64,000 nucleotides of DNA from a virus. The stretch is taken from the IMG/VR virus record IMGVR_UViG_3300031841_003422, positions 1 to 64,000 of that record; one strand, given 5' to 3'. The position numbers were made by a program, and so were the translations under genes. Of this stretch, positions 39,601 through 63,594 are shown piece after piece; position 1 is the first letter of the stretch; the number at the start of each line of letters is the position of its first letter. The notes beneath the pieces are model-generated. The model was not told where the DNA came from, did not search any database, and worked only from the letters and a program-made list of their open reading frames with translations.

Positions 39601-42600
39601 TTATAAGACCTGTATCTAAAAGCGGTGATGGTGGACTACCTCGGTTTATTTCTTATCAAACTGGTGAATGTAATAGTTTTAAAACTTCTAGCACACAACC
39701 TCCTTCTCAAGATTATACACCTCTTAGTGTAACTCAAGCATTTTTAGACCCTTTATCTAATCCAGACTCAGTTTTGTTGACAGAAAGATCAGACGCAGCT
39801 TCTAGCGGTCATGATTTTGAAATTTTAGCTAGAAAAGAAAATCAAGATATTTCTGGATGGAGTGTTCAAAAAAATAAAGAGTATGAAGATGATTATCGTT
39901 TTATGGCACTTCGTGGCCCTTTAATGATTCAGGGGTGGGGCTATGATACAAACAGTAAACCTATTCCTAATTCTGTTGATGTTGTGTCTAATATAACAGG
40001 CAATGGTCAATATGAGTCGCAAGGCTTGACAGATAAGTTTTTAGATGGCTTTCTTCAACAACCTGAGACTTGGCCTGTAGCACCTTTAGATTTAAGATTA
40101 GATAGAAAAAGAGGAGTGTGGACTGTTGCTCAACAGCCTCGACCAGTTCATGTAAATATAACAGGCTGTATTGGTACTGGTAGTGCTGTAGCAACGGCGA
40201 CAAATTTAGCTGAAACTTATGATGCTGATGGAAACGCTGTTTCAGATCAAATATCTATTACTTGGCCTTGGGATATTTCTAATCCTACGGGCATAGGTAA
40301 GGTTCCTGTTTATTATGATGATAACGATTGTAAAAACTATGTGTTTCCTATAAATAGATTTGATGCGGCATATATAGCTTTTGGCGACCCAGAATCCCAA
40401 AAGAATACTATCTATGATACAAAATCAATAGTTTTTAGCGGTTTTGAGGTTATAGAGACTATTGAAGATTGTCAAAATTCATTGTTAGTAAAACCTAGTG
40501 GTAGTGGTGATGCTGTTTTTCTTTGTGTCAGTGGTTTAAATACTTGCCCAGAAGACTTCGGTGGTTATTTAAAACAAAATGTAAATGGGTGTTTGGCTTT
40601 TGGTTCTGGTCTTTTTATAACTGGTTATGATGCTACTAATCTAAGAGTTGACACAAATCTTGTTGCTAGTGGTACAGAATATATTCAAGACGGGTGTTCT
40701 TTTACTGAAGTTGAAGGCACTGTCGAAAAAAGATTTACTAAACTAGGATTTGCAGGTAATCTTTCTACAACGATAGATACTGATATAACTAGCGACTGTG
40801 CTGTTATAGTTAGTGGTTTTCAACAACCAATACCTATAACTAATTCTGGGGTTTGCGGTGATATCGAAGAAAATACTTTGTTCTCTTCTTTAATTATCGG
40901 TACTGGTTTAAGATATGTTGACAGAGATGCTATTACTGATTGTGAAGTTGAATTGCGTAGTAACATAAGAGCTTTAGGTACAGTATATACTAGAAGCGAT
41001 TTAATTGGTTGCACGTGGGCAAAGGATGGAAACCCATCATTTGATACCTTATTTGAAAACCTTAATTTTGTAGGAAATATTTCTGTTACAGGAGATGATT
41101 GTGATGTTTATGTAAGCGGTTTTCAACAGCCTCTTGCTATGATTAACTCTGGTGTTTGTGGAAGAGACAACGAGTTTGTTGGCGGGGGTGTTCCTGATAC
41201 ATATTGGGATATTTTAGTTGCTAGAACTGGTCTTAAATGGCACTATGAAGGAGAGGGAGAACATGGTTGTACGGGTGTTTTAGATGTAATATTGCAAACT
41301 TCTGGAGCACCTTGGATTAGAACCTATGGAGGAGATTGTTCTCTAACGGATGGTGATCCAACTTCAAATGTTTTTGAAAGAATCGCTTTTACCGGTAATC
41401 TTTCTCATATTCCTAGTGGGTGTACAAGTATTGTTAGTGGTTTTAATAATATTGTAGTTAGTGGTCAAACTTGGTCTACTGATTATAATAATTGCGATCC
41501 TTATGTAGCAAGTGCTCCTCTTGGTAATGGGGGGATATTAGATAAAATAATATTTACTGGTGAACTTTCTACAAGTTTTGGTAGTAATTGTGAAGTTATT
41601 GTTAGTGGTTTCCATCAGCCAAACTTTATTATTGATACTGGTACTTGCGGCGGTATAACATTAGATACTTATAACGCAGATACTTTTATATTTGGTACTG
41701 GTTTAGATGTTGTGGAGAAAGAAGTAGATGGTAAATGTGCCATGCTTATCAATCATAATCTTACGATTAGTGGTTATGATCTTGTAACAAATCCACTTGA
41801 TCCGTGTGGTGATCGTGTAGATGGTGCTAAGACTGAGACTACAGCTTGGGAAAAAATAGCTTTTACTGGTAATATTTCTGTAAGCACTGGTCTTAATCCT
41901 TGTGATATTTTTGTTAGTGGTTTTCAAAATAATATTCCTATAACTGGAGAAAAATGGACTAGGGATGGAGGTAGTGAAGGCGATACCGATTATCAGTGCT
42001 ATTGGTCACAAACAGGTTATAATGTACAAGCTAATTTTGATTCTATAGGAACCGCTGGTTTTATCAGTCTTATTACTGGTGCGGGTTGTGAAGTATATCT
42101 TAGTGGGGTGGAGCAACCGTTTAGATTTATAGAAAGCGGAACCTGCGGTTCCACAACACTTGAAACTTTTAATTCAAAAGGCTTGATCTTTGGTAGTGGA
42201 TTAAAAGCCAGTATGATACCAGATTCCAATTGTAGTGGTATTGTTGAAGTTGATATTAAAGCACAGGGGGTTCAATGGACAAGAATTTCAAGTCCTCCCA
42301 CTAGCTGTGGTTGGCAACCCACTGTTATTAGCACAGAAAGAAGATTTGAAAATCTAATTTTTGAAGGTAATCTTTCTGTAACTGGAAGTACTAATGGTTG
42401 CAATATACATATTAGTGGAGTTCAACCTTCTATTAAGGTGCAAGGCTTGGAAGAGTGTCCTAGCATTAGTGCTTTTGCTGAATCCGATATAAGTAAAATT
42501 AGGTTTGGCACTGGGTTACAACTAACTCTGGAAGCTGGTGCTGATGCTTGTGATGATGGACCAAGAGTAGATGTAAAGCTTATTGCAGATGGTTTTGATA

Positions 42601-45600
42601 GAAGAGGTGGTACTCCAATTGCTGTTACTCAAAGGTTTACTAAAATAAATTTTGGAGAAAACCTTGGAATAGAAAGCGATGGTGCTTGCGAAATCACTGT
42701 TACTGGAATACAAACAAATTTAACGCTATCTGGAATAGCATCATGCAATAATTCTAATTATCTTAAAGAAACCATATCAACTTTAAAAATTGGCAGAGGA
42801 TTAAAAGCTGAAAATACTAACGAGGTACGCCTTGATTTATGGTTTAAGGGTAATGAGTATACTGATTCTTGTACTAAGGGTGCTGGTCTTGAATCAAATA
42901 CTGTTACAGGAATAGAATTTAGAGATATTGCCCTTTCTGAAAATGTTTCTGACTGCTCTTTAATTGTAAGCGGTCTTAAAACTGTGCAGTTAGCGGGTGT
43001 TGATGATTCTGGTTCTGGCTGTGGTACTGTAGTTGCCCCCTTTGATGCTAAAAGGCTTATATTTGGTACTGGTTTAGAACTTGTAGACAATGGTTGTTCT
43101 GGTGTTGTTAATTCAACGTTGAAAGTTAGCGGTAAAGACTCAACCCTTGTTACTATAACCGACCAGCCTGTTACAAGTTTTAACTTTTTATCAGATACCC
43201 CTACTAGGACTCCAATTTATGTAAATACTGACGGGTGTGAAATCACTGTTAGTGGTGGACCTGCTAGAATATTGGTTAGTGGTATAACAAGCTGCGATCA
43301 AGCTGGTAGTGCATATTATTCAGCATTAAAAGAAAACCTTGAATTTGGAAAAGGTCTCTTTGTAACCGATGGTAGTGAACCAGAATCAGCAAAGATTGAA
43401 TCAGTTTTTTATGTCGCAGGCGATACTGACAATGGTTGTGGAACAACTACAGCGGCGGCAAGTGTTACTGGATTAGTTTTTGGTTCTGGTCTAGAATTAA
43501 CAAATGGTACTTGTAGCGGTGTTGTAAGAACAAACCTTATTGCAGTAGGTACTGACAAGAGTGGCGGTGGTAGTTCTCTTGTTCAAAAAAGGTTTACTAA
43601 ATTAAAGTTTCATGCTGACGATTTTAGCCCATTCTCTATCCAAGAAGACTCAGGAGATAATTGTCAAGTTATAGTTAGTGGAGTTCCAGTGATGGTAACT
43701 TCTGGGCTTTTAGCTTGCGGTAGGGCGGCTGTTCCTTCCCAAATATCTAGAGGAATAGGTTTCGGAACCGGTTTACAGTTAAACAGTGATTCTCAAGTAA
43801 ATGCTGTGCATAAAGTACAGGGAACTGATCTTGGTGGAGGAAGCTTCACTACTCAAGTATTTGAAACACTTACTTTTGGAAGTGGTCTTTCTTCTGTAAA
43901 TAAATCTAATTGTGAAGTTGAAATCAATATTGATTCGGCTCCAGTTTGCATTAGCGGTCTTGATACTTGCGGTGGCTCTGCTGTTGCTGAAAGCACATAT
44001 GAATGTATAGGAATTGGCACAGGTCTTAAAATAACCAATAATGGTGCTAGTGCTTTAATTGAAAGTAATATTCAAGCAGAAGGTACAGACAAAAGAAATG
44101 GAAGTAGTTCTGCTATTGCTTTACAGCAGTTTGAATCACTTAACTTTATAGGTGGTATTTCTGTTCATGAAGGAAGCGAGTGTGAGTTATTTATTAGTGG
44201 AATTGAAATAAGCATAATAGGCGATGCCGCTTGTGAAAGAAGTGCTGTTGCTGAGTTCAAAGCTAATACTTTTGAGTTTGGAACAGGCTTGCAGGTTGTG
44301 CAAGATAGCAATAAAGTTCTTGTTGATTCTGTGATAAATGCAGCCGGTGATGGTTTCCCTGCTGCTGTATTTGAGAATATAGTATTTGAAGGTGGTCTTT
44401 CTGTAAGCGGTGATGGTTGTAATGTACATGTTAGCGGTTTAGACTTTATTTTCTCTGGTATCAATACATGTCCAAAGGACGGAGGTGGATACCTAAAAGA
44501 GAGTATTCAACAAATATCAATTGGTAGTGGACTTATAGCTACAAATGATGCTTCCGTAGGAAGAATAGACCTAAATTTAACTGCTAGTGGATTAACCTAT
44601 CCTGTATTAGAAGCATATCCTTGTGACACTAATGCTGTTCAATTAGATAGAACTAATTTTACTAGTTTAAACTTTGTTGGAAATCTTAGTGTTGAAGCAG
44701 ACCCAGCCAATGATTGCAGATTACTAGTTAGCGGTATACCTTCTATATTTAGTGGTATAGGAGTCTGCATGAGGAATGTAGTTGATCCGTTTGACGCTTG
44801 CTTGCTTGCTGTTGGAACAGGATTGCAATTATCTGAAAGAGACGGCAAGGCAATTCTTAATTCTACTTTAACAATACAACAGCCAGCAGACACTTCAACC
44901 TGTTATGACACAATAGCAGACCCCACGGCTTTTGAAACAATAAGTATTTCTGGTTTTGGTGCTAATGTAAGTGATTGTGGATTAACATTAACTCATAAGC
45001 AGAATATTAAGAAAACAGAAGAAGCCAGTTGCTTCTTTAATATTGATGGAAGCGGCACTTTTGCTGAAACTCCATTCAAGGTTTTAGATTTTGGAGAAGG
45101 TATTTTAGCAGAAGTTAATGGTTGTGTTGCCACTATAAAAGCTGGTATAGCGGGATATGCAAATAACGGTTCGTGTACGGAGTCTGATTATAGTACTCCT
45201 GTAACTGATTTGGTTACTGCCGTTGGTGCAGGTCAAGGTATTTTTGCTGAAATAGATAATTCTGCTGGCTGTAATGCTATAACTTTTTCTCAACCTTTAT
45301 CGCTTTGTAGTACTAATCTTGCTGGTCAATCTATTACCAAATCGGCAAGCTCGCCATACCCAGATACGACTTGTTCAATTACAGACTGTACTGATGGTAC
45401 TTGGAACGCTGGAAATGGCCCCTTTGAAGAAAGAAGATCGCCTAAAGCTTGGAAAAATATTGTAGCTGGTCCCGGTGTTGGCATTACAGCGGGTTGTTCA
45501 GGACTATCAGACGATGGATTATCTGGTGATGCAGACGGGGATTGTACAACGATCTTTTATAGTAATCATATACTAAATGGTAAGACTTGTGACAATCAAG

Positions 45601-45926
45601 ACGTTCTTGTTATACAGCAGTTCGATTGGAATTATGATTGTGATTTTGAATTAACACAATCGGCATCTACTCCTACTTCTCAGTTTGATGGTGCTGATTG
45701 GACTCAATCAACAATAATTAAATTAAGTGAAACGAACGGTGGTAATAATTGTTGGCAAGGTCAGATTGTAACTGGTTGTGAGTCTGATGGTGGCTATGTT
45801 ACTTCGTGCTTGACTGCAACAATTGCTGGCACTGCTTCTTGTAATGGAAAGTACTGGCTTAAAGATATTCCTGCTGGTTGGATAAATGGTACGGATTGTA
45901 ACAGTAGTTGTCAAAATCCAGAATAA
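36669..45926 (+). CDS. Giant tail hub/central fibre protein with Cys-containing repeats
   Basis: A 3085-residue protein. The N-terminal part (to about residue 450) is hub-like: VPVYFRIEDFEFAGLVQDWT, SVSISDPRLILDNTQIIV, and MSELISQVCSDAGCDYYIEL resemble gp27/gpD-type hub domains that cap the tube. A middle region to about residue 1280 is beta-rich. From about 1285 to 2780 there are 16 or more copies of a two-part unit: FxxLxFxGNLSV...C.VxVSGF, then FGTGL.....C. The C-terminus is Cys- and Gly-rich and ends GTDCNSSCQNPE. It is probably the receptor-binding central fibre at the tip. Repeats and cysteines are unusual for a phage fibre. Role inferred from place and the hub-like start. Confidence 0.75.
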   Translation: MATEFVKKNDCSPASLYGPLVQHIFLGASVQSFSASAGWNEQGSSLTVELAEDPCVGPKVWYDNGVRRYGDIADPGFVYPTPGVPVYFRIEDFEFAGLVQDWTQKNDANGNPLFSVSISDPRLILDNTQIIVNDYPGDTENVYNLINAYGFIETLSKGQICTSANTCPSSKRFGGTSEQNTLSLIANERGMLWKDVKAAIHSLCSNPIAPGPSCDQKYLKDNRLVYVGSSSSTYGRLASNGFDNLGNLKSDYLIDLSEIPISPNYYRISGPTISMSELISQVCSDAGCDYYIELQPTFSAGLKKIIKVRTVSRANPPASNALDTFILNRQLAYPQAEGGIISFTKGKEVRNENTSIFIMGGKKLQPYQLTSESGIQGDSPIQPFWGVNSDNRLLKAEIHPSGYYRVQLEFDKLNKSLNTPVEEKAWITEPEIRAALMDYSSFKSMTATMSGDLGGELGEHLSTIGNKPERDNAANLEAAKGNVPVGDIVIPRPQDDNKDRGFEENAAKDSDLIYDFVKSYAQDYYGKQFLVNSDGIPVCYKLDSASAFGSGVPPTYRFTHDTSNQAWVLDGTSQVLGLTHNSPATDFFRDEQGLYQPILRFPLLSGLLLGSGTYATGDPSYIGDQDYITNGTGTGISDPSVWVKAQINDKWVLGNNLDPSGDSIYFNITIPAPFTQVSAYLPAFDALAFKENLNAAAALTDIPTGLNQGVEKGSFVDGLFPSAALPDSAFCCVQNNLEVYGPFGVAGAPGSVSLENDDGLVPWEYGSDQIMEQAALQKVQDAATQMRQSERGSVTLAGFPEIPLGAELNYSAGLQDYIETRNATLEPVTDGRSFVKVVKSGWTGSGGPNLTNVNVSVGAGGFTTSYQFSTYTPQFGKFSKGNAERLKRIGQTRLQNMRNVRAKRLEKSSFSFDRTKQFLEDKIGRTAKAPKSAHHTLVGRITNSGRVEINSQNIQELNVAIPTDSGYAKTAIMSWDGIIRPVSKSGDGGLPRFISYQTGECNSFKTSSTQPPSQDYTPLSVTQAFLDPLSNPDSVLLTERSDAASSGHDFEILARKENQDISGWSVQKNKEYEDDYRFMALRGPLMIQGWGYDTNSKPIPNSVDVVSNITGNGQYESQGLTDKFLDGFLQQPETWPVAPLDLRLDRKRGVWTVAQQPRPVHVNITGCIGTGSAVATATNLAETYDADGNAVSDQISITWPWDISNPTGIGKVPVYYDDNDCKNYVFPINRFDAAYIAFGDPESQKNTIYDTKSIVFSGFEVIETIEDCQNSLLVKPSGSGDAVFLCVSGLNTCPEDFGGYLKQNVNGCLAFGSGLFITGYDATNLRVDTNLVASGTEYIQDGCSFTEVEGTVEKRFTKLGFAGNLSTTIDTDITSDCAVIVSGFQQPIPITNSGVCGDIEENTLFSSLIIGTGLRYVDRDAITDCEVELRSNIRALGTVYTRSDLIGCTWAKDGNPSFDTLFENLNFVGNISVTGDDCDVYVSGFQQPLAMINSGVCGRDNEFVGGGVPDTYWDILVARTGLKWHYEGEGEHGCTGVLDVILQTSGAPWIRTYGGDCSLTDGDPTSNVFERIAFTGNLSHIPSGCTSIVSGFNNIVVSGQTWSTDYNNCDPYVASAPLGNGGILDKIIFTGELSTSFGSNCEVIVSGFHQPNFIIDTGTCGGITLDTYNADTFIFGTGLDVVEKEVDGKCAMLINHNLTISGYDLVTNPLDPCGDRVDGAKTETTAWEKIAFTGNISVSTGLNPCDIFVSGFQNNIPITGEKWTRDGGSEGDTDYQCYWSQTGYNVQANFDSIGTAGFISLITGAGCEVYLSGVEQPFRFIESGTCGSTTLETFNSKGLIFGSGLKASMIPDSNCSGIVEVDIKAQGVQWTRISSPPTSCGWQPTVISTERRFENLIFEGNLSVTGSTNGCNIHISGVQPSIKVQGLEECPSISAFAESDISKIRFGTGLQLTLEAGADACDDGPRVDVKLIADGFDRRGGTPIAVTQRFTKINFGENLGIESDGACEITVTGIQTNLTLSGIASCNNSNYLKETISTLKIGRGLKAENTNEVRLDLWFKGNEYTDSCTKGAGLESNTVTGIEFRDIALSENVSDCSLIVSGLKTVQLAGVDDSGSGCGTVVAPFDAKRLIFGTGLELVDNGCSGVVNSTLKVSGKDSTLVTITDQPVTSFNFLSDTPTRTPIYVNTDGCEITVSGGPARILVSGITSCDQAGSAYYSALKENLEFGKGLFVTDGSEPESAKIESVFYVAGDTDNGCGTTTAAASVTGLVFGSGLELTNGTCSGVVRTNLIAVGTDKSGGGSSLVQKRFTKLKFHADDFSPFSIQEDSGDNCQVIVSGVPVMVTSGLLACGRAAVPSQISRGIGFGTGLQLNSDSQVNAVHKVQGTDLGGGSFTTQVFETLTFGSGLSSVNKSNCEVEINIDSAPVCISGLDTCGGSAVAESTYECIGIGTGLKITNNGASALIESNIQAEGTDKRNGSSSAIALQQFESLNFIGGISVHEGSECELFISGIEISIIGDAACERSAVAEFKANTFEFGTGLQVVQDSNKVLVDSVINAAGDGFPAAVFENIVFEGGLSVSGDGCNVHVSGLDFIFSGINTCPKDGGGYLKESIQQISIGSGLIATNDASVGRIDLNLTASGLTYPVLEAYPCDTNAVQLDRTNFTSLNFVGNLSVEADPANDCRLLVSGIPSIFSGIGVCMRNVVDPFDACLLAVGTGLQLSERDGKAILNSTLTIQQPADTSTCYDTIADPTAFETISISGFGANVSDCGLTLTHKQNIKKTEEASCFFNIDGSGTFAETPFKVLDFGEGILAEVNGCVATIKAGIAGYANNGSCTESDYSTPVTDLVTAVGAGQGIFAEIDNSAGCNAITFSQPLSLCSTNLAGQSITKSASSPYPDTTCSITDCTDGTWNAGNGPFEERRSPKAWKNIVAGPGVGITAGCSGLSDDGLSGDADGDCTTIFYSNHILNGKTCDNQDVLVIQQFDWNYDCDFELTQSASTPTSQFDGADWTQSTIIKLSETNGGNNCWQGQIVTGCESDGGYVTSCLTATIAGTASCNGKYWLKDIPAGWINGTDCNSSCQNPE
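40521..45000 (+). repeat. Repeat array in the fibre gene, 16 or more degenerate units
   Basis: Two alternating motifs mark each unit. The first, (V/I)SG after a nearby Cys, begins at about 40521, 40801, 41103, 41421, 41594, 41901, 42088, 42401, 42689, 42956, 43239, 43665, 43940, 44182, 44420, 44717 and 44979. The second, (F/I)G(T/S)GL, occurs between them (for example about 41691, 42190, 42505, 43067, 43480, 43760, 44012, 44277). Spacing averages near 285 bases, about 95 residues, and ranges from 173 to 426. The DNA is diverged, so the units are old and kept at protein level. Confidence 0.8.
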
Positions 45927-54592: not shown

Positions 54593-56232
54593 TTTCTTAG
54601 TCCTTCGTGTGCTTGTTTAATAAATCCATGCTGTAGTTCTAGAGGTGTATTAGAACATCTTAATTGATCCAAAGCAAATCTTTTTTCAGAGATATTTCTA
54701 CATTCTTTAAAAACCGTTTCTTGAGTACAGGGCGATAGGTTTCCACCATCTATTACTGCCCCAAAGTTTAAGTTTCTTAAATTACTTAACATTTTATGAT
54801 TGAACATATTATATCCATCTTGAATCATAGCGGAATAAACCCATTCACAAAATTGAATATTTGAAAGATTTTTAATTGGTTCTTTAGGAATAGGTTTTAT
54901 CATAGGTGGTATATTCCAATCAAGATTCTTACTCAAATCCACTTGGTCAAAATAATCTTGCCAAGCATTAGCGGAAATATCCCAAGTGTATCTTTCAATA
55001 CAGTTTTTCCTAGTTTGAATTCTTTGTTGTTTTTTCTGCTCTTTAGTTTGTTTTGCAAAAGCTTGCATTGCTTCAACAAGTGCTTTGTTGTTTGAGTTGC
55101 TTCTATCCGCATTAGTTTCCATTTCTCTTTGAAGCATCGGCTCGATGGGATACCCTTTAGTGTAGGAAACTATATCTTCCATAGCACTATAATTAATAGA
55201 AGCTATAGGTGTTCCGCACGCTGCTGCTTCAACTTGAGGCATACCAAAACCTTCGCAAATTGCATACTGAACATACAAATCCATAGCATTATATATTTTA
55301 TGTAGTTCTGAGTGTTCTATTCCGTTTTGAACACTAGGTAAAGATGCTGCAAAACTTCCGCATTTATTACATGTAGTTAATGCGTCTCTATAATGACAGG
55401 AGAAAAATTGATTACAAGACCTACAAACATATGTACATAATAACTTAGAACCAATCCCGTATTCATGAGCAAGGGAAGTAATATTCCATCCCATTTTTTC
55501 AGGATAGCTTGTATGAATATATAAGAAAGACTTTTTTCTTGTCTCTTCGTCTGTAGTATCTAAAAAGGTTTTAAAGGCTTTCATTAATTCTGGAAACATT
55601 TTTCTCTTTTGATTACGCATAACAGTGCCAAATATGATACTGTCTGTAGGCAGACCTAAAGAAGCTTTATGGTTATCTTTATTAGGAATAATATTGAAGA
55701 TTACGGGGTCAATAGCAGGAGAAGCACATCCATGTACTTTAACCCTTCCTTTTGTTTGTTTTTCTATGGTTCTTATTCCGTACTCAGAATAAGCCATTAG
55801 CCCATCACACTTATTAAACCAATAAAGCCATTCATTTTTTTGTGGTTCGCTATCAATTGTTGGCATCCATACCCAATGAAAAAATGGTAGATATGGGCTG
55901 TCAACTATATAAGAATCCATCCAAGGATCACGATATGTAACAACAATGTCTGGTTTAAAATCCAATACTGCTAATTCAAATTTGTGAACCCCCCATTGTA
56001 CTACTGGGTTTTTATGTTGCTCTGCATAGTCTTTTTCTCCACGCATAGGAGCATTGCCATATATTAACCAGTCACTATCTTTTACTGTGTCCGGTGATCT
56101 ATAGCAAGAAAATTCAGCTATCTCATATTTTCCAGAACTATGTATCCTTTGCAATATTTCTTTAGCATATGTACCAAAACCAGAAGCTAGTTCTGTTGAC
56201 TCTGTTACGAATAATACTCTTTTCTTATTCAT
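54589..56232 (-). CDS. GT4-family glycosyltransferase with inserted zinc ribbon
   Basis: A 547-residue protein. The start RVLFVTESTELASGFGTYAK is a GT4-type glycine loop. R206-NQKRK near residue 207 and EGFGMPQVEAAACGTP (327-342) are the donor phosphate and E-x7-E type motifs of this family. Between them lies a zinc ribbon, C270-x2-C273 and C288-x2-C291 (CRSCNQFFSCHYRDALTTC), which ordinary GT4 enzymes do not have. The C-terminal 120 residues are an extra helical domain. It is the largest enzyme of the locus and lies just after the sigma gene with an 8-base overlap. Donor and acceptor are unknown. Confidence 0.78.
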   Translation of the reverse strand: MNKKRVLFVTESTELASGFGTYAKEILQRIHSSGKYEIAEFSCYRSPDTVKDSDWLIYGNAPMRGEKDYAEQHKNPVVQWGVHKFELAVLDFKPDIVVTYRDPWMDSYIVDSPYLPFFHWVWMPTIDSEPQKNEWLYWFNKCDGLMAYSEYGIRTIEKQTKGRVKVHGCASPAIDPVIFNIIPNKDNHKASLGLPTDSIIFGTVMRNQKRKMFPELMKAFKTFLDTTDEETRKKSFLYIHTSYPEKMGWNITSLAHEYGIGSKLLCTYVCRSCNQFFSCHYRDALTTCNKCGSFAASLPSVQNGIEHSELHKIYNAMDLYVQYAICEGFGMPQVEAAACGTPIASINYSAMEDIVSYTKGYPIEPMLQREMETNADRSNSNNKALVEAMQAFAKQTKEQKKQQRIQTRKNCIERYTWDISANAWQDYFDQVDLSKNLDWNIPPMIKPIPKEPIKNLSNIQFCEWVYSAMIQDGYNMFNHKMLSNLRNLNFGAVIDGGNLSPCTQETVFKECRNISEKRFALDQLRCSNTPLELQHGFIKQAHEGLRK

Positions 56233-56680
56233 CTTTATTTGCTTCTCTCAATCTGATTAATAGGTTGTAGAATTTATTTTTAACCGAAGATGGCGACTGA
56301 TCTAAAATCTTACATATTTCTCTAAACTTGTATCCAGCCTGTCTTAATTTAATAATACTTTTTTCTTCTTCGGTCATATCTGCTGTAAATAACTCCCAAA
56401 GTCTTTCCTTATTTTGAGCATCAAAACAAGTATTTTCGATTAAAGATAAAGTCTTATGGTTGTTTTGATTTTTTATTTCTCTAATTATCGACCATCTAAT
56501 AGGTCGCCAAGCATATGTAGAGAGAGCATTACCGGATTTAAGGTCATATTTTTGTAAAGCTTTCCATAAACCAATTCTTCCCGCATCCATCAAGTCTTGA
56601 TGCTCAGTGTGATTTTTGGGTTTGAATTTTTTTACAATATCTGCAACCAAACCCATATTTTCTTCTATTAAATCATCCAT
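56225..56680 (-). CDS. Small sigma-70-family factor, probable late gene regulator
   Basis: A 151-residue protein with sigma regions 2 and 4 only. Residues 1-72 are region 2: NMGLVADIVKKFKPK, DLMDAGRIGLWKALQKYD and the -10 recognition helix GNALSTYAWRPIRWSIIREI. Residues 102-145 are region 4: TEEEKSIIKLRQAGYKFREI then SSVKNKFYNLLIRLRE. It would bind host core polymerase and direct it to phage promoters, most simply the morphogenesis genes. A TATAAATA box at 23982 is a candidate target. The region 2 match is strong; the late role is inferred from T4 gp55 and similar small phage sigmas. Confidence 0.82.
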   Translation of the reverse strand: MDDLIEENMGLVADIVKKFKPKNHTEHQDLMDAGRIGLWKALQKYDLKSGNALSTYAWRPIRWSIIREIKNQNNHKTLSLIENTCFDAQNKERLWELFTADMTEEEKSIIKLRQAGYKFREICKILDQSPSSVKNKFYNLLIRLREANKDE

Positions 56681-56692
56681 ATGTTATCCTTA

Positions 56693-58318
56693 TTATATAC
56701 ATTGTTTCAGCTTTTGTACCTTCTTAATAATAAAACTTCCGAATTTTTCATCTTTAGTTCCTCTAAACAACAATACCTTTCCAATAGATACGGTTTCTTT
56801 CATTCTTTTCCAATCATCAGAAAATATTGTCGTGCTGTCTAAAGTACAAGTGCCGTCACTCAATCTTAAAAATGCCATGACTGAACCCTTGTGTTTTCCA
56901 TTCTTGGTTTTCCATTCTCTTATATCTTCTACCTGTGCGGCGATAGCTATTGAATTTGAATCAAAACCCTTTAGATATTCTCTACAAGTACAGTTTGCGT
57001 CCATAGTATCATATTCATCTACTTCTGAACATGTAAGTTCTATACCCATAAGGTCTCTTTCTTTTTTTGCCCTCCAAGAAGGTCTATCGACCAACTCATA
57101 AGGTGGTTCTTTTAAAGAAATTATACAACTTCTTAAAAACTCAATATTTTTATCCGTCCAAGCATTTCTTCTTCTATTCTTTACAATATCATCTATACAT
57201 TTTTCAATGCCTCTGATAAAAGTTTTAGAATTATCATTAGAAAGGAATGTTTTATCCCTATCCTTTATTTCTTTGTAAACATTAAATTGGTAAATCATTT
57301 TTGATCTTTGCATCTTATAACAATCAAACGCTCCCGCTTCAATCATTGATTCAAAAGAATTACTTTTTATAAATCTTCCTAGACGCATCAAAAACTCTTC
57401 CCAACTCATGCCGTAAATATCAATATTATTATTTTTGATATAACTTTCTAGCTGGTCAAAAACGCTTTCCCCTACATTTTTAATATTTGTAATTCCAAAT
57501 GTCGGAACATTATCAACCAAGCAAAACTCTTTTTTCATTTGCATGATATTAGGAGGCATAACATCAATATCCATAGCTCTAGCATTACTAACTAAGTCGT
57601 TTACCTCTAGCAGAGGCTTGGGTTTACCCTTTGCATGTCTTAGATATGAAGTAAAGAAGGCTCTAGGAAAGTGTGCTTTGCAATAAGCTGTTTGATAACC
57701 ATTGATAGCATAGCTTACACTATGGCTTTTATTGAAAGAATATTTTTGAGATTTCTCGATCCAACTAAAGATTTCTTCTGCTTCTTCTTTGTTTATCATC
57801 TTTAATTCTTGAGAACCTTTGATGAACTCCTGCTTAACTTTAGCCATAAGTTCAACATTCTTTTTACCAATAGCCTTACGAAGATTATCGGCTTGCTCTA
57901 GGGAAAAGCCAGCGACCAACTGTGCAATCTGCATGGCTTGCTCTTGATATACTAGAATACCATAGGTACTTTTTAGAATAGGTTCAAGAACCTCAAATTC
58001 ATAAGCTACAGCATCTTTTCCTGATTTTCTATCAATATAGTGATTTGTCAAAGACTTACCTTTAACCATAGCGTCACCACAACCCGGCCTAATGATGGCA
58101 TTTAGGTCTGAAAGTTCTTCTATATTTCTAGGCTTGACTTCTCTAGCTTTACTTTGTCCTAGTTGAGATTCCAGTTGAAAAACACCTTTGGTATTTCCTT
58201 CGCAAATCATATCCCAAGTTTTTTGACAATTCAATGGCAATGAATCAATATTAGGATTAAATATAGGCAAACCGTTTTCGTTTTGTTCAAATTCACAACC
58301 ACATGAAAACTTAATCAT
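56693..58318 (-). CDS. dnaE: DNA polymerase III alpha (DnaE), C-terminal half
   Basis: A 541-residue protein matching DnaE from the fingers onward. It has NTKGVFQLESQ, AIIRPGCGDAM, YGILVYQEQAMQIAQLVAGF, NLRKAIGKKN and SQKYSFNKSHSVSYAINGYQ, then an HhH region (PTFGITNIKNVGES) and an OB fold (SIAIAAQVEDIREWKT). The catalytic Asp residues and the PHP domain are not here; they are in the ORF at 59904-61790. The first 32 residues (CGCEFEQNENG and on) have no counterpart in E. coli DnaE. No intein is seen; at the usual cyanobacterial DnaE intein site the text KYSFNKSHS is uninterrupted. The two halves must work as separate chains or be joined in some unseen way. Confidence 0.85.
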   Translation of the reverse strand: MIKFSCGCEFEQNENGLPIFNPNIDSLPLNCQKTWDMICEGNTKGVFQLESQLGQSKAREVKPRNIEELSDLNAIIRPGCGDAMVKGKSLTNHYIDRKSGKDAVAYEFEVLEPILKSTYGILVYQEQAMQIAQLVAGFSLEQADNLRKAIGKKNVELMAKVKQEFIKGSQELKMINKEEAEEIFSWIEKSQKYSFNKSHSVSYAINGYQTAYCKAHFPRAFFTSYLRHAKGKPKPLLEVNDLVSNARAMDIDVMPPNIMQMKKEFCLVDNVPTFGITNIKNVGESVFDQLESYIKNNNIDIYGMSWEEFLMRLGRFIKSNSFESMIEAGAFDCYKMQRSKMIYQFNVYKEIKDRDKTFLSNDNSKTFIRGIEKCIDDIVKNRRRNAWTDKNIEFLRSCIISLKEPPYELVDRPSWRAKKERDLMGIELTCSEVDEYDTMDANCTCREYLKGFDSNSIAIAAQVEDIREWKTKNGKHKGSVMAFLRLSDGTCTLDSTTIFSDDWKRMKETVSIGKVLLFRGTKDEKFGSFIIKKVQKLKQCI

Positions 58319-58337
58319 ATTAAAAATATCCTATCTA

Positions 58338-58667
58338 TTAACGTTTATAAGGCCAAATCTTTGCTAGTTCATCTGTCACGCCGTCGATCTCCACTAACCA
58401 GCGACCATATTTTCCTGTTTTTTCTGTTCTTATTTTTACCCACCATTCTTCATCTGGTAAATCCTCAAAGTTTATTTCTGCGACAGACTTTAATAATCCC
58501 GCACAGGCAGCGGTAGCCTTTGACCAATCTTCATGTCCTCGCTCTGGAGTGTCTACCCCGATGAGTCTCGTTCGTATAGTCGTGTGAATGTTAAAGCCGA
58601 GATCAACAACAAAATCGACAGTATCTCCATCCACCACTCGCTTAACTCTTGCATTATATTCATACAT
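58338..58667 (-). CDS. Staphylococcal-nuclease homologue
   Basis: A 109-residue minimal SNase domain without a signal peptide. It keeps all catalytic positions: VDGDTV (D13, D15), RTRLIGVDTPE (R34, D39, E42) and KTGKYGRWL (R89), in the order found in the micrococcal nuclease. It would be a calcium-dependent phosphodiesterase cutting DNA or RNA. It lies inside the polymerase group, between the DnaE C-half and a membrane protein that ends with a shared base. The setting suggests host DNA breakdown or DNA processing during replication. The fold call is firm; the target is unknown. Confidence 0.82.
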   Translation of the reverse strand: MYEYNARVKRVVDGDTVDFVVDLGFNIHTTIRTRLIGVDTPERGHEDWSKATAACAGLLKSVAEINFEDLPDEEWWVKIRTEKTGKYGRWLVEIDGVTDELAKIWPYKR

Positions 58668-58972
58668 TAATCTATATTCCTTATAATATTATTATCGAGT
58701 TCAGGCATGATTCTGGCACTAGGTGTAGCCATAAATGAATAAAATGAATACACCAGCATAGAAAATGCTATCGTAGCCAGAAGTGACGCACCAATCATTT
58801 TCATACTTTCAATATCTAAACTAAGTTTTAGTTTTACTTTCTTCGCTGTTCTTTTATATTTAAATTTTGCTGGCAGCTTTTTAGGTGGAGGCTTGTCTCG
58901 TCGAAACATATCCTGCAAACCCTTTTCTGCTGCCCTTTGAGTTTTAGATTTAACCCTTGGGTCAGTTTTCAT
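58667..58972 (-). CDS. Small single-pass membrane protein
   Basis: A 101-residue protein. Residues 1-50 are very basic (Lys/Arg-rich, PPPKKLPAKFKYKRTAKKVK); residues 58-84 are one hydrophobic helix (MIGASLLATIAFSMLVYSFY); the last 17 residues are polar. By the positive-inside rule the basic part would be in the cytoplasm, where it could bind DNA or anchor the replication proteins to the membrane. It shares a base with the genes on both sides. A holin is less likely because of the basic half and the place within replication genes. Confidence 0.65.
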   Translation of the reverse strand: MKTDPRVKSKTQRAAEKGLQDMFRRDKPPPKKLPAKFKYKRTAKKVKLKLSLDIESMKMIGASLLATIAFSMLVYSFYSFMATPSARIMPELDNNIIRNID

Positions 58973-59664
58973 TATATTTCTACGCCTGAAAAACTACCTT
59001 TAAATTTAGAAACAGATGCTTGCTTCCTGTGAAACTTTAGAAATCTTGTTACAATGGCTGATTCTTCAAAAACATCTGTTAATGCGTCATGAGCTACACC
59101 ACCCTTCATTTTAATATCAAAAAACTTACGCCATGTGTCCATCTTAAAATCGAATGGTTCTTCAAGATTTTCAAACCACCAAAAAAGATTATCCATAGCA
59201 TCTAGCTTTGTAACACCAGAAAAAGGATTTTTAACTTTATATTTAGCACAAAGTCTTTGAGCAATAGGAAGGTCAAACCCTGTAATATTATACCCTGCTG
59301 GAATCGGTTGAGGAAACCATTGCCCAGGTTTCTTGTCAACATTGTATTTAGAGCACCAATTACAAAAGTTTTTCCAAGCAACCTTTTCTGAAAGACCGCA
59401 CTTCCATTTCTCAATTATTTCTGCACTAGAAACACCGTAGTTTTCAGCGTGCCAACTGATAGTTCCTTCTCGCTTAGGTACTTCAAAATACTCTGGTTTA
59501 TCAATACCTTCTGGCTTAATCATAACATTAAAAGCTTGATCTTTTTTTATTTCAAGGGTTTCTGGATGGATTGGAACAGCGGCTAATTGCACAATATTAC
59601 ATTTTTCTGCATCTGGCAAATCTGTTTCAAAATCAAAACATATAATCCATCTACTATTTTTCAT
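58972..59664 (-). CDS. DnaQ-like DEDDh 3'-5' exonuclease
   Basis: A 230-residue protein with the DEDDh residues in order: IICFDFETD (D11, E13), AGYNITGFDLPI (D131) and GGVAHDALTDVFEES (H192, D197). It has the core size of epsilon-type exonucleases, with an insert that carries Trp-rich text (GQWFPQP). It is the probable proofreading subunit for the split DnaE polymerase, encoded beside it. The PHP domain of the N-terminal DnaE half also looks able to bind metal, so the phage may have two exonuclease sites. Overlaps its neighbour by 4 bases. Confidence 0.82.
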   Translation of the reverse strand: MKNSRWIICFDFETDLPDAEKCNIVQLAAVPIHPETLEIKKDQAFNVMIKPEGIDKPEYFEVPKREGTISWHAENYGVSSAEIIEKWKCGLSEKVAWKNFCNWCSKYNVDKKPGQWFPQPIPAGYNITGFDLPIAQRLCAKYKVKNPFSGVTKLDAMDNLFWWFENLEEPFDFKMDTWRKFFDIKMKGGVAHDALTDVFEESAIVTRFLKFHRKQASVSKFKGSFSGVEI

Positions 59665-59903
59665 TTTAATTCCTCCGAAGGCACAATGTATATATTTTCA
59701 AACTTCACACAACCCGTTTCTGGATTTTGCTCAATATGTTTTTGTACGGCCCCATGTTCTTGCTGTGTAATATCATCCAAATGATTACAAGTTAGCTCAT
59801 AAGCACCTTTCGATACAACAACCTTTTGTATAAAGGGGTATTCAAGAGATAGTTTCATCATATCTTGCATGAATTTTGCGTACATTTTATTTTTAGTATC
59901 CAT
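59661..59903 (-). CDS. Small protein of unknown function
   Basis: An 80-residue protein between the DnaE N-half (starting right after its stop, at 59903) and the exonuclease gene (4-base overlap). It begins with a Met/Lys-rich helix (NKMYAKFMQDMMKLSLEYP) and has strands FIQKVVVSKGAYELTCNHL and a closing ENIYIVPSEEL. No motif is recognised. The tight spacing in the polymerase group suggests a replication-linked role, perhaps bridging the two DnaE halves, but nothing in it shows this. Confidence 0.55.
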   Translation of the reverse strand: MDTKNKMYAKFMQDMMKLSLEYPFIQKVVVSKGAYELTCNHLDDITQQEHGAVQKHIEQNPETGCVKFENIYIVPSEELK

Positions 59904-61790
59904 TTATTCTCCTGCTACAATTTTAACAACGTCCATAACTTTATCTAATCCTCTAATAGCTAGGCAGTCTAGTTTAAGAAGTCCTACATCTTCACAACTC
60001 GGCCCTTCAAATCCTGCTAATTGATTTTTACCTTTATTATCTAGCACCATAGGACATGATTCACTAATCGGTTTTCTCGAAACAATAACGCCTGCGGCAT
60101 GTTTGCCAGAAATAATTTTTGTACCCTCGATCCTAATAGCCTGTTCAAACACCTTAGCCATCCTTCCTTCTAAATTACCTTCTTTGCCAATATAGCACCA
60201 GTTCTTTAGCTTCTGCGGGGTATTTTCCAATGCCCAAAGTATACTAGAAGAATAACCATATTCATCTTCAATATCTTGCAATTCGTCAGAAATTTTATTC
60301 TCGTCTTGTAAACATTTTGTTATAGCTTTCTGTTCATCAAATGAAACGTTACCTCTAGAAGCCATAACTCTAGTAAGTGCTGCCTTACCTTTTAGTTTTT
60401 GAAAAGTAATAATCTGTGCAACATTTTCTTCACCGTACTTGTCTCTAATATACTCAATAGTTTCTTCTCTTGCCTCTTTTGGAATATCAAAGTCAATATC
60501 GGGCCAAGAGATTTTACCGGGTGCGTTACGACCAGCATTATAAAACCTTTCAAAGATTAACTTGTAGGGTATTGGGTCTACTTGTGTGATATTAAGTAGG
60601 TTGGAAACCATACAGCCAGCAGCACTTCCACGACCCGGTCCTGTGATATATCCTTTACTCCTAACAAAATTAAGAATGTCATCAATGATAAGAAAATAGC
60701 TGGATAAACCGATAGATGTGAACACTTCCAATTCATGATTAACCCTGTTTCCATATTTATTAAATAGTTCTGATGTTTTATCAAATCCTTTCATCTTTTT
60801 ATTCCATCCGTCCCTACAAAGCTTTCTGAGGTATTCTTCTGGACTCATACCATCGGGACAACTAAACTCTGGCGGATCGGGCGACTTCATAATATTGTAG
60901 TTTTCACACATATCAAGAATTAGATTAGTATTAGCTAGTTCTTCTTCTGTATGAAATTCAATCATATCTTCATAAGTGGGGATATGATAGTTATTTGAAA
61001 GAAAGTTTGTTTTCAATACATTACTAGCTGTTCCCTGCTTTAGTTCTCTTTGGACTTGAGGGATCGTTTTCTTCAATGCTGTACACAAAAGTATACGCTG
61101 ATCCTCTGCATCCTCCCTTCTGCAATAATGAGCGTCTGGTGTAGCCACACAGGGGATTTTTGTTACTTTCGAGATTTGCCTTAAAGCATTTGCTACAGAA
61201 CCAGCAAATTTATTAATTTTGGAATCAATTAATTGAATCTCAATAAAGAAATTGCCTTTGCCAAAAATAAGCTCTAGGTCTTTAGCTTTGGCAACCCCCT
61301 TTTTCATCCAATCAGGATCAAGCCTTTCACCATCTGTAATAGCATTTGCTAATATTGAACCAAGATGACCGCTAAATGAGACTAGGTTTTTTTGAGAACC
61401 TAGCATGGCTAGAATATCAATGTCGATTCTTGGCTTATGGTAAAAGTGTTCTTTTTTATTGGATATAGAAACCATAGATAAAAGATCAAACCAGCCTTGA
61501 TGATTTTTAGCAATCACCACCTGATGACTTAGCTTTCTATTATCTTTGCTCTTTTCAAGAACAGAGCCTTCGCAAACATAAAGTTCGCAACCAAGCAAAG
61601 GTTGCAAACCAGCAGTCTGCATTTCTTTGCTAAAATCCACCGCACCACTTACAGAACCATGATCTGTAATAGCACAAGCAGAGGAACCAATTTCTTGTAT
61701 TCTTTCTGAAATATCAGAACACTTGCTTAGTCCATCAAGCAAAGAGTACTCGCTATGACAATGTAATGGTGTATAAGTTTTCTTTTTCAT
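59904..61790 (-). CDS. dnaE: DNA polymerase III alpha (DnaE), N-terminal half
   Basis: A 628-residue protein with PHP domain and palm. PHP metal residues look intact: H10 and H12 (LHCHSEYSLLDG), D43-H44 (ITDHGSVSGAV), E184, and D219/H221 (ATPDAHYC). The palm has GPGRGSAAGCMVSNLL, the catalytic WPDIDFDIP (D431, D433) and the third Asp in GLLKLDCLAIRGL (D608). It stops at residue 628, just after that Asp; the fingers and beyond are in the ORF at 56693-58318. In the E. coli protein these parts are one chain. There is no intein-like end. It would be inactive without the C-half. Overlaps the nuclease gene upstream by 4 bases. Confidence 0.88.
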   Translation of the reverse strand: MKKKTYTPLHCHSEYSLLDGLSKCSDISERIQEIGSSACAITDHGSVSGAVDFSKEMQTAGLQPLLGCELYVCEGSVLEKSKDNRKLSHQVVIAKNHQGWFDLLSMVSISNKKEHFYHKPRIDIDILAMLGSQKNLVSFSGHLGSILANAITDGERLDPDWMKKGVAKAKDLELIFGKGNFFIEIQLIDSKINKFAGSVANALRQISKVTKIPCVATPDAHYCRREDAEDQRILLCTALKKTIPQVQRELKQGTASNVLKTNFLSNNYHIPTYEDMIEFHTEEELANTNLILDMCENYNIMKSPDPPEFSCPDGMSPEEYLRKLCRDGWNKKMKGFDKTSELFNKYGNRVNHELEVFTSIGLSSYFLIIDDILNFVRSKGYITGPGRGSAAGCMVSNLLNITQVDPIPYKLIFERFYNAGRNAPGKISWPDIDFDIPKEAREETIEYIRDKYGEENVAQIITFQKLKGKAALTRVMASRGNVSFDEQKAITKCLQDENKISDELQDIEDEYGYSSSILWALENTPQKLKNWCYIGKEGNLEGRMAKVFEQAIRIEGTKIISGKHAAGVIVSRKPISESCPMVLDNKGKNQLAGFEGPSCEDVGLLKLDCLAIRGLDKVMDVVKIVAGE

Positions 61791-62887
61791 TCAGTTGATC
61801 CCGGTGCTTTATAGTGTCCATGAACATGATCTGGGTGAACATAATTTTTAGTAACCCAATCAATACCTTTTTGTTGTATAGCTAGACGTATCTGCTCACA
61901 CTGAGTCATAGTATCGCCATAGCACGTTCTTTGTCCTACTCTCTTTTCCACTATGGGTAAAACATGAGTGTCTTTAAAAGTGGTTTTTCCAGCATCGCAA
62001 AGCGTTTTACACTTCCAAGATTCCTTTCTATTAAATTCTGGTATTACTAATGGTTGTTCTGTATCCCTAATAGTTTCAAACTTCTTTTTGATAATTTCTA
62101 TGGTTTGATCCATATCTGAATCTTGAAAATGAACTGTATAAGGACCGCCTGTATTTATGTAGTAAATTGTAACTAGAAACGTACTTACGTCAGGATAAAG
62201 ATGCTTGCAGGCATAGTGATACATTCTTAACTGTGCATTGTCAAATAAATTCGCCTGAGTATATTCTTTACCTGTAGCCCAATCTTTTCTTTGTCCAGTT
62301 TTCCAATCAACTACTTCATATACCTTTTCTCCATCTTCTTCGCTAACGTCTGTTATAAGGTCGATTGTTCCCTTTAAAGAGAGGTAGCCATCTAAATTAT
62401 GCTCTGGATATTCGTATTTTGCCCAATCTTCTTCAAGAGTAATGTCAAAATGTGGTTCCACATCAACAATTTTTCTTTGCCTTGGGTCAAACCACCCATC
62501 TCTATACTTTAAAGCCTTCCAAGCCCAACTCACACAATCTTCAAAATCTTTTTCACGCCACCTAGTTCTAGGTTTTTCATTATGATGCGTCCATTGAGAA
62601 GTATAAAATTCGTAAACTCTAGCCGCCATAGCATTAAAATACTCTGGAGTATAATCATCTGTAATGACTTCTCCAATATCAGAATCATTGATTACCTTTA
62701 TACCAGACTGTTCTGCCTTTTGACACAAAGCAGCAATCTCTAATATCTTATGAGTAATAGTACCTTTGTCTGCTTTCTTGCCACCCTTTCCTCTGATACC
62801 TAATGTGTATTCAATATAGAATTGCATAGGACACATTCGATGCGTGTTGAAAGAACTGCTCCTAAAGTATACGATTGGGATTCCCAT
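61787..62887 (-). CDS. RecB/Cas4-like nuclease (PD-(D/E)xK, probable Fe-S cluster)
   Basis: A 366-residue nuclease. It starts RSSSFNTHRMCPMQFYIEYT, as in the AddB/Cas4 group, then GTITHKILE (H46), LKGTIDLITD (D176) and YEVVDWKTGQ (D194, K196), the PD-(D/E)xK core. C19 at the start and the C-terminal group WKCKTLC plus RTCYGDTMTQC give the four-Cys arrangement that holds an iron-sulfur cluster in Cas4-like nucleases. It would resect DNA ends in recombination or process replication intermediates. It shares a base with the methyltransferase gene and overlaps the DnaE N-half by 4 bases. Confidence 0.8.
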   Translation of the reverse strand: MGIPIVYFRSSSFNTHRMCPMQFYIEYTLGIRGKGGKKADKGTITHKILEIAALCQKAEQSGIKVINDSDIGEVITDDYTPEYFNAMAARVYEFYTSQWTHHNEKPRTRWREKDFEDCVSWAWKALKYRDGWFDPRQRKIVDVEPHFDITLEEDWAKYEYPEHNLDGYLSLKGTIDLITDVSEEDGEKVYEVVDWKTGQRKDWATGKEYTQANLFDNAQLRMYHYACKHLYPDVSTFLVTIYYINTGGPYTVHFQDSDMDQTIEIIKKKFETIRDTEQPLVIPEFNRKESWKCKTLCDAGKTTFKDTHVLPIVEKRVGQRTCYGDTMTQCEQIRLAIQQKGIDWVTKNYVHPDHVHGHYKAPGSTE

Positions 62888-63594
62888 TATTTTTTTCCTT
62901 TTGCGACAATATTATATTCATGACTTCTGTTTTTTCTTTTTATCGGCTGCTTGTCTATTTGGATATCGTAAAATCCACAATCTTGCAAGTCTTTATTTAA
63001 AAAGTCTATATCTTCACAGGTTACATCGTGGCCCGAATTAGTTGATTTTGCTTCAAAAAAATCTTCATAATATAAAGAACACTCACTATGGCCTTGATAT
63101 TTACCACCAAGCATATGAATACTTATTATTCCATCTTTTTTTAATTTTGAATATAGTTGTTGTATATAGTGTTTTCTTAATGAATAAATAGGTATATGCT
63201 GAAAAACTGTTATAGAATAAATAAAATCGTAATAATTTTCAGGTATATTTTTCAAAGATTCATATTCGACTTTGAAAAAATCCGATGAATTTAAATCCCA
63301 AAGATTATTTTGTGCGGCCTCTAATGCGGCTTCTGATATATCACAACCATCTACATAATCAAAATACTTTTTAAAATATCTCATCCATCTTCCCGTTCCA
63401 CAACCAAACTCTAAGCAATGAAATTTGTTTGCAACTAATTTTCCACCGAATCTATTATACAGATTGTCTTTTCTGAAAATTTTAAATTGGTTTGGATTAG
63501 CTTTTTGGTCTACGGTCGCTCTGTATTTGTCTGGATCATTGTAAAAGGGTATGATTAAATCATCAAAATATTTTTTAATCTTTTCGCTTTCCAT
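62887..63594 (-). CDS. SAM-dependent methyltransferase
   Basis: A 235-residue class I methyltransferase. The SAM-binding motif is HCLEFGCGTGRWMRYFKKYF; the acidic ribose-binding step is VDGCDISEAALEAAQ; and YDFIYSITVFQHIPI is the usual strand with acceptor-side residues. There is no DPPY or NPPY and no cytosine motif, so a DNA base methylase is not favoured. It probably modifies a small molecule, glycan or protein. It lies between the dNMP kinase and the nuclease, away from the glycan locus. Substrate unknown. Confidence 0.78.
   Translation of the reverse strand: MESEKIKKYFDDLIIPFYNDPDKYRATVDQKANPNQFKIFRKDNLYNRFGGKLVANKFHCLEFGCGTGRWMRYFKKYFDYVDGCDISEAALEAAQNNLWDLNSSDFFKVEYESLKNIPENYYDFIYSITVFQHIPIYSLRKHYIQQLYSKLKKDGIISIHMLGGKYQGHSECSLYYEDFFEAKSTNSGHDVTCEDIDFLNKDLQDCGFYDIQIDKQPIKRKNRSHEYNIVAKGKK

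Follow-up and report, generated by a model that had tools for sequence, protein, structure and literature searches.

A phage DnaE polymerase encoded in two pieces on either side of a DnaQ-like exonuclease gene

A DnaE gene divided between palm and fingers

We analyzed 64,000 nucleotides of viral DNA (positions 1 to 64,000 of IMG/VR record IMGVR_UViG_3300031841_003422), which we call the window. On its minus strand, a family C DNA polymerase of the DnaE type (Pol III alpha) is divided into two open reading frames (ORFs), here the N-half and the C-half, with four genes lying between them. From upstream to downstream, the features are:

59904..61790, minus strand: DnaE N-half, 628 amino acids, with PHP, palm and thumb (PF02811, PF07733; PDB alignments; AlphaFold2 model)
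59661..59903, minus strand: ORF of 80 amino acids, function not assigned, beginning directly after the N-half stop
58972..59664, minus strand: DnaQ-like DEDDh 3'-5' exonuclease, 230 amino acids (PHROG 192, "DNA polymerase exonuclease subunit", 1.7e-6; active site; position)
58667..58972, minus strand: protein of 101 amino acids with one probable membrane helix (ORF list; alignment to the related locus L001)
58338..58667, minus strand: SNase-like endonuclease, 109 amino acids (phrog_452, 1.5e-23)
56693..58318, minus strand: DnaE C-half, 541 amino acids, with fingers, tandem HhH and OB fold (PF17657, PF14579; PDB alignments; AlphaFold2 model)

A preliminary description of this DNA had proposed that DnaE is split into these two ORFs. 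The ORFs lie exactly where it placed them, and Pfam, PHROG and PDB alignments all agree with the assignment. The N-half matches PHP at residues 9-186 and the complete DNA_pol3_alpha profile at 319-611 (profile positions 1-260 of 260), and its palm holds all three catalytic Asp residues (D431, D433 and D608). The C-half matches DNA_pol3_finger from residue 23 (profile position 21 onward) and then HHH_6, such that the border between Pfam domains is the exact position of the N/C division. We take the names palm and fingers to follow published DnaE structures, together with these Pfam borders. A single PHROG, phrog_405 (profile length 1190), is matched at 40-614 by the N-half and at 622-1074 by the C-half. 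The domain set of a family C Pol III alpha is complete, but it is spread over two chains. The OB fold closes the C-half at residue 541, and there is no C-terminal tau-binding domain like that of DnaE1.

Alignment to full-length DnaE, which the preliminary description had suggested, maps the break to approximately residues 575-579 of E. coli DnaE, at the boundary of palm and fingers. In phmmer comparisons to solved structures, D608 corresponds to E. coli D555, N-half residue 616 to E. coli 563 and C-half residue 15 to E. coli 579. Given these correspondences, the end of the N-half (residue 628) falls near E. coli 575. The earlier claim that the N-half ends just after the third catalytic Asp is right as to the identity of the Asp, but the chain continues for 20 residues beyond D608 and closes its last helix (613-625). 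The C-half does begin, as claimed, with the fingers region that normally follows. When the joined halves were aligned with 12 intact phage and bacterial DnaE proteins, nothing was missing, nothing was duplicated and the conserved residues were complete. Relative to these intact proteins, the new start of the C-half has gained roughly 20-25 residues.

AlphaFold2, run with family alignments on each half, gave a mean predicted local distance difference test score (pLDDT) of 90.8 for the N-half and 91.4 for the C-half. The best PDB matches of the N-half model are all Pol III alpha, with template modeling (TM) scores of 0.75-0.80 over the query, and those of the C-half model are Pol III alpha subunits. 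Given these confident separate models and their matches, both predicted halves look like complete folding units.

Conservation of the split

Relatives were gathered by scanning IMG/VR and GTDB contigs with the N-half, C-half or exonuclease as query. Fused genes are as recoverable as split ones by this method. The scans favor close relatives, so there may be split or fused forms at greater distance. All relatives are metagenomic, and duplicates were removed before loci were counted.

We found 185 distinct loci that contain both halves, and all 185 are split at the same junction into two ORFs, where a family C Pol III alpha would otherwise be a single polypeptide. Just four fused DnaE genes were recovered (L369, L442, L443 and L444); their identity is 26-34%, and they fall outside the split clade. 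In two trees that include intact DnaE, the split sequences are set apart by a branch with a support of 100 in the Shimodaira-Hasegawa-like approximate likelihood ratio test (SH-aLRT), and the stem of the split clade is long (0.77-0.80 changes per column). A single origin of the split is the simplest account of these trees, although long branches of several intact sequences leave the exact sister group unsettled.

Metagenomic sequence raises the question of whether a sequencing or assembly error has divided one gene. Many samples contributed to the 185 distinct loci, which all show the same arrangement around an intact exonuclease gene, and two records that are nearly identical to the window agree with it, so we give practically no credence to an error. 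The preliminary description had named such an error, or large missing or duplicated parts, as grounds for rejecting the split; neither is apparent in the loci or in the junction alignment.

Both halves are under purifying selection. The ratio of nonsynonymous to synonymous changes (dN/dS) is approximately 0.01-0.1 for the N-half, the C-half and the exonuclease alike (Nei-Gojobori method, 16 pairs). The triad of palm Asp residues is present in 154 of 154 N-halves, and the FNKSH sequence in 138 of 146 C-halves. A motif used for calling a PHP domain active, the metal set HHDHEHHDH (PMC12926913), is complete in 100 of the 154 N-halves, and about a dozen more are merely truncated at their start. 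In the subclade of L140 (L140 and L290-L336), the PHP domain is shrunken and its metal residues are gone, while the DEDDh exonuclease is intact.

This loss of PHP metal residues could point to a pseudogene or a recent break, i.e., a decaying polymerase in a phage that depends on the replicase of its host. However, PHP inactivation is frequent among replicative DnaE proteins (PMC12926913), and the split is a single, clade-wide one with low dN/dS in both halves and invariant catalytic residues. Decay is therefore extremely improbable, as the preliminary description had already held on the basis of the window.

Genes between the halves

The exonuclease is the one constant element between the halves. 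Its gene is found there in all 161 loci of our first set and in 185 of the 185 loci overall (183 under a strict rule); in L440 and L441, it is still between the halves, with a longer overlap into the C-half ORF. The active-site residues D11, E13, D131, H192 and D197 are kept in 162 of 162 sequences and constitute the DEDDh site of DnaQ/epsilon proofreading exonucleases. A comparison of the window exonuclease to a phage collection yielded no match, and no exonuclease of this family is inside or beside the intact polymerase gene in the 12 such loci examined. Judging by its sequence and position, the exonuclease is probably the proofreading subunit of the polymerase.

The other three genes vary. 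Relatives of the 80-residue ORF are confined to near relatives of the window, and other small ORFs occupy its place elsewhere; the ORF of 60-80 residues that precedes the exonuclease is variable and does not form a single family. In the two near-identical records, which differ at 10-11 of 1887 bases and whose proteins are 99-100% identical, the split is the same but the membrane-protein and SNase genes are missing, and the gap between the halves is 931 bases, versus 1585 in the window. An SNase gene does occur in some other relatives (L009 and L013). In an alignment of window positions 58338-58972 to L001, the membrane-type and SNase pair sits as a precise insertion, with the exonuclease stop on one side and the C-half start on the other. 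These two genes are recent or late cargo. Thus, one of the intervening genes is a constant partner of the split, and the other three are variable passengers. The preliminary description had counted four unrelated genes between the halves and proposed a search for the same four in other phages. The number is correct for the window, but of the four only the exonuclease accompanies the split in every relative, so that "unrelated" does not suit it. Pfam and PHROG searches of the window ORFs between the halves found no match to HNH, GIY-YIG or LAGLIDADG endonucleases.

Gene layout and neighbors

Two further genes adjoin the halves:

61787..62887, minus strand: PD-(D/E)XK nuclease, directly upstream of the N-half with a 4-nucleotide overlap; the same neighbor occurs in relatives
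56225..56680, minus strand: sigma-70-like factor, directly downstream of the C-half, 12 nucleotides apart

From the PD-(D/E)XK gene to the C-half, the genes of the window join with overlaps of 4, 1 or 0 bases, with the exception of 19 nucleotides before the C-half. Among them, the 80-residue ORF overlaps the exonuclease gene by 4 nucleotides, and the exonuclease, membrane-protein and SNase genes overlap by 1 nucleotide each. In the near-identical records, the exonuclease stop overlaps the C-half start (TAGTG). A 4-base overlap is the commonest spacing of exonuclease and C-half in relatives (45 loci), and the spacing is at most 20 nucleotides in 131 of 161. This layout suits translation of the N-half, exonuclease and C-half from what would be one message. 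A scan for promoter consensus sequences gave scores close to background and established no promoters.

Genes for a DnaB-type helicase, a primase and a RecA-like protein lie upstream in the same record, which places the polymerase within a replication module. We met no second polymerase, including one of family B, among the proteins searched, which were part of the ORFs of the phage.

The new head of the C-half

The C-half begins with a new head that has no counterpart in intact DnaE. In the window, it comprises C-half residues 1-31 (positions 58226-58318) and contains a CxC sequence (C6 and C8) as well as C31. All three positions are Cys in 106 of 146 C-halves. In the L140 subclade, the CxC head is lost and C31 is replaced by Asp. 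C6, C8 and C31 may form a metal site. A scan of the N-half, C-half and exonuclease for covarying Cys and His residues indicated that C430 and H216 of the C-half track C31, but the contrast comes mostly from one subclade. Either residue as the fourth ligand of a putative zinc site with C6, C8 and C31 is only a lead.

Inteins and further breaks in the same gene

Cyanobacterial DnaE is broken in the fingers beside FNKSH. The preliminary description had placed the phage break elsewhere, between palm and fingers, and this holds; the KYSFNKSHS sequence is intact in the C-half. Neither IntN/IntC sequences at the break nor a break at the FNKSH site of the cyanobacterial type was found in the phage gene.

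Cyanobacterial DnaE is also the classic host of a split intein, and two relatives of the window, L437 (PGPGRG|S) and L441 (FNK|S), have split inteins elsewhere in this gene. It is thus conceivable that a split intein, or else the trans-splicing of a split intron, unites the halves once they have been transcribed or translated. Against such joining, the window halves have no match to intein families in Pfam, and an Rfam search of window positions 55500-63500 found no intron. A median of 20 residues follows the catalytic motif of the N-half, and TKGxFQL of the C-half is preceded by a median of 46. The new ends at the break are nearly all homologous sequence or CxC head, with nothing intein-like in any locus, and are so short that too little sequence is available for a known split intein. 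The intein searches have a built-in positive control, in that inteins elsewhere in the same gene of relatives were readily found. We therefore regard joining as very unlikely, and the earlier statement that no intein ends are seen stands.

The inteins found in relatives are diverse. The C-half contains a cis intein at RPG|C, within the fingers, in L197 (7977-10367), L209 (8031-10379) and also L437, and at FNK|C in L439 (5878-8352). In L441 (5851-8864), the C-half is interrupted at FNK|S by a split intein whose parts flank a LAGLIDADG ORF, and splicing restores FNK|SHAVSY. In L437 (1873-4991), a split intein interrupts the N-half at PGPGRG|S with an ORF resembling phage endonuclease I/PDDEXK in between, and splicing restores PGPGRG|SAAG. 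The sequence predicts that the L437 polymerase would require trans-splicing, cis-splicing and chain assembly. The arrangements in L437 and L441 resemble the fractured genes with split inteins and a free-standing endonuclease that Dassa and colleagues reportedly described in 2009, whereas the conserved N/C break has no intein.

In L043 (4108-7101) and L201 (3290-6419), the N-half is broken again before the catalytic PDID motif; a LAGLIDADG ORF separates the parts, and no intein was seen. An extension of ~84 amino acids (with ...NSYIMWIY... in common) is present on the downstream piece. Rfam intron searches of L043, L201, L209 and L197 gave nothing meaningful.

Proposed assembly of the polymerase

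In the reading that we clearly favor, a family C replicase gene was broken once, two chains made from one message assemble non-covalently and the DnaQ-like exonuclease joins them as a proofreader. A single break in the ancestor of the clade would have fallen in the loop between palm and fingers. The N-half, exonuclease and C-half would be co-translated from one polycistronic message, the chain with palm, thumb and PHP would bind non-covalently to the chain with fingers, HhH and OB to create one active site, and the exonuclease would be added as a third, proofreading subunit. Given that the cut lies between domains across a large phage group and always has the exonuclease gene within it, it is very probable that the working enzyme is assembled from two chains. 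The preliminary description had left a choice between such assembly and joining in an unknown way. Its two-chain part is the best supported, and we infer that no ligation is involved, that the assembled enzyme serves as the phage replicase and that the exonuclease binds to it. As to the origin of the break, insertion of the exonuclease gene and an older endonuclease insertion that has since been replaced would both fit.

Two points weigh against assembly from two chains. Because the fingers of DnaE bear on the incoming nucleotide, a break at the fingers is mechanically demanding. In addition, all members are metagenomic, and a search for isolates of the clade found none, the nearest match being at ~33%.

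It is also possible that the halves never meet, and that one acts alone or with the host DnaE; for example, the PHP/palm chain could be a nuclease or decoy, and the C-half a DNA-binding protein. Jumbo phages do keep a minimal split Pol III, whose role is not known, beside a family B polymerase (PMC7824862). However, in the present clade, strong constraint acts on the fingers motifs as well as on the Asp triad of the palm, the two genes always keep the same order next to each other, genes of the replisome are nearby and the proteins searched included no second polymerase. Separate functions are thus very unlikely. A tentative variant of two-chain assembly, to which we assign a small but appreciable chance, is an obligate three-chain replicase that has been stable throughout the clade, in which the exonuclease would bridge the chains or order their assembly, and the CxC/C31 head would be a metal-bound clasp against the N-half.

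Comparison to known split genes

The proposed assembly has parallels in other enzyme families. In Aeromonas phage 25, the family B polymerase is split into gp43A and gp43B, and the two chains purify together and polymerize; phage Aeh1 has a split NrdA that is fully active (PMC2988022). Like these "genes in pieces" (including gp43A/43B of phage 44RR), the split DnaE consists of two polypeptides that have no inteins and keep all motifs. Two-chain assembly is the most likely mechanism for the split DnaE. The genes-in-pieces splits, however, are sporadic in few phages and have a homing endonuclease or an untranslated spacer between the pieces, while the DnaE split affects a family C enzyme, is clade-wide and has a proofreading exonuclease and other coding genes in between.

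The one phage precedent that we found for a split family C polymerase is in group 2.2 jumbo phages, whose minimal Pol III alpha is split into two standalone proteins; together these are predicted to re-form the enzyme (Iyer et al. 2021, PMC7824862). Those proteins have the catalytic and template-binding cores alone, their genes are distant from one another and a family B polymerase is present alongside. By contrast, the DnaE halves keep PHP, thumb, HhH and OB and are in one operon, with no other polymerase among the proteins searched. Ordinary DnaE (phrog_405; T. aquaticus 2HPI, E. coli 2HNH, M. tuberculosis 7PU7) has the same domain order and the same catalytic and PHP metal residues, but is one chain without a CxC head before the fingers. 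Cyanobacterial DnaE with its split intein likewise comes from two genes (Caspi et al. 2003, cited in PMC3919608). Its parts carry IntN and IntC and are ligated by trans-splicing, whereas the phage break is ~190 residues earlier and has no intein.

We found no published account of the present arrangement in the open-access literature. Given that split phage replicases are already known, the DnaE split is a new, clade-wide variant. A bacterial-type replicase apparently tolerates a permanent cut between palm and fingers, and the pieces were kept as an apparent replicase while a whole phage clade diversified, with the cut tied to the gene for a proofreading exonuclease. The junction offers a ready-made split point for family C polymerases that evolution has tested. 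The clade also allows fission, homing endonucleases, split inteins and cis inteins to be compared in one gene.

Additional observations

In L124 (3857-7464; Bacillus phage vB_BpsS-140) and L442 (4212-7593), PHP has an ORF of its own that lies upstream of the palm and overlaps slightly with it; this ORF is unannotated in the Bacillus phage record. This could be either a second natural fission point or the result of frameshifts.

Two relatives that are ~82% identical, L135 and L136, occur in contigs (JABXKB010000027.1 and JABXKB010000087.1) binned as a Lokiarchaeota metagenome-assembled genome. The contigs are probably phage DNA that was wrongly binned with this genome. In the other half of the window are two very long ORFs, at positions 24058-34953 (3631 amino acids) and 36669-45926 (3085 amino acids).

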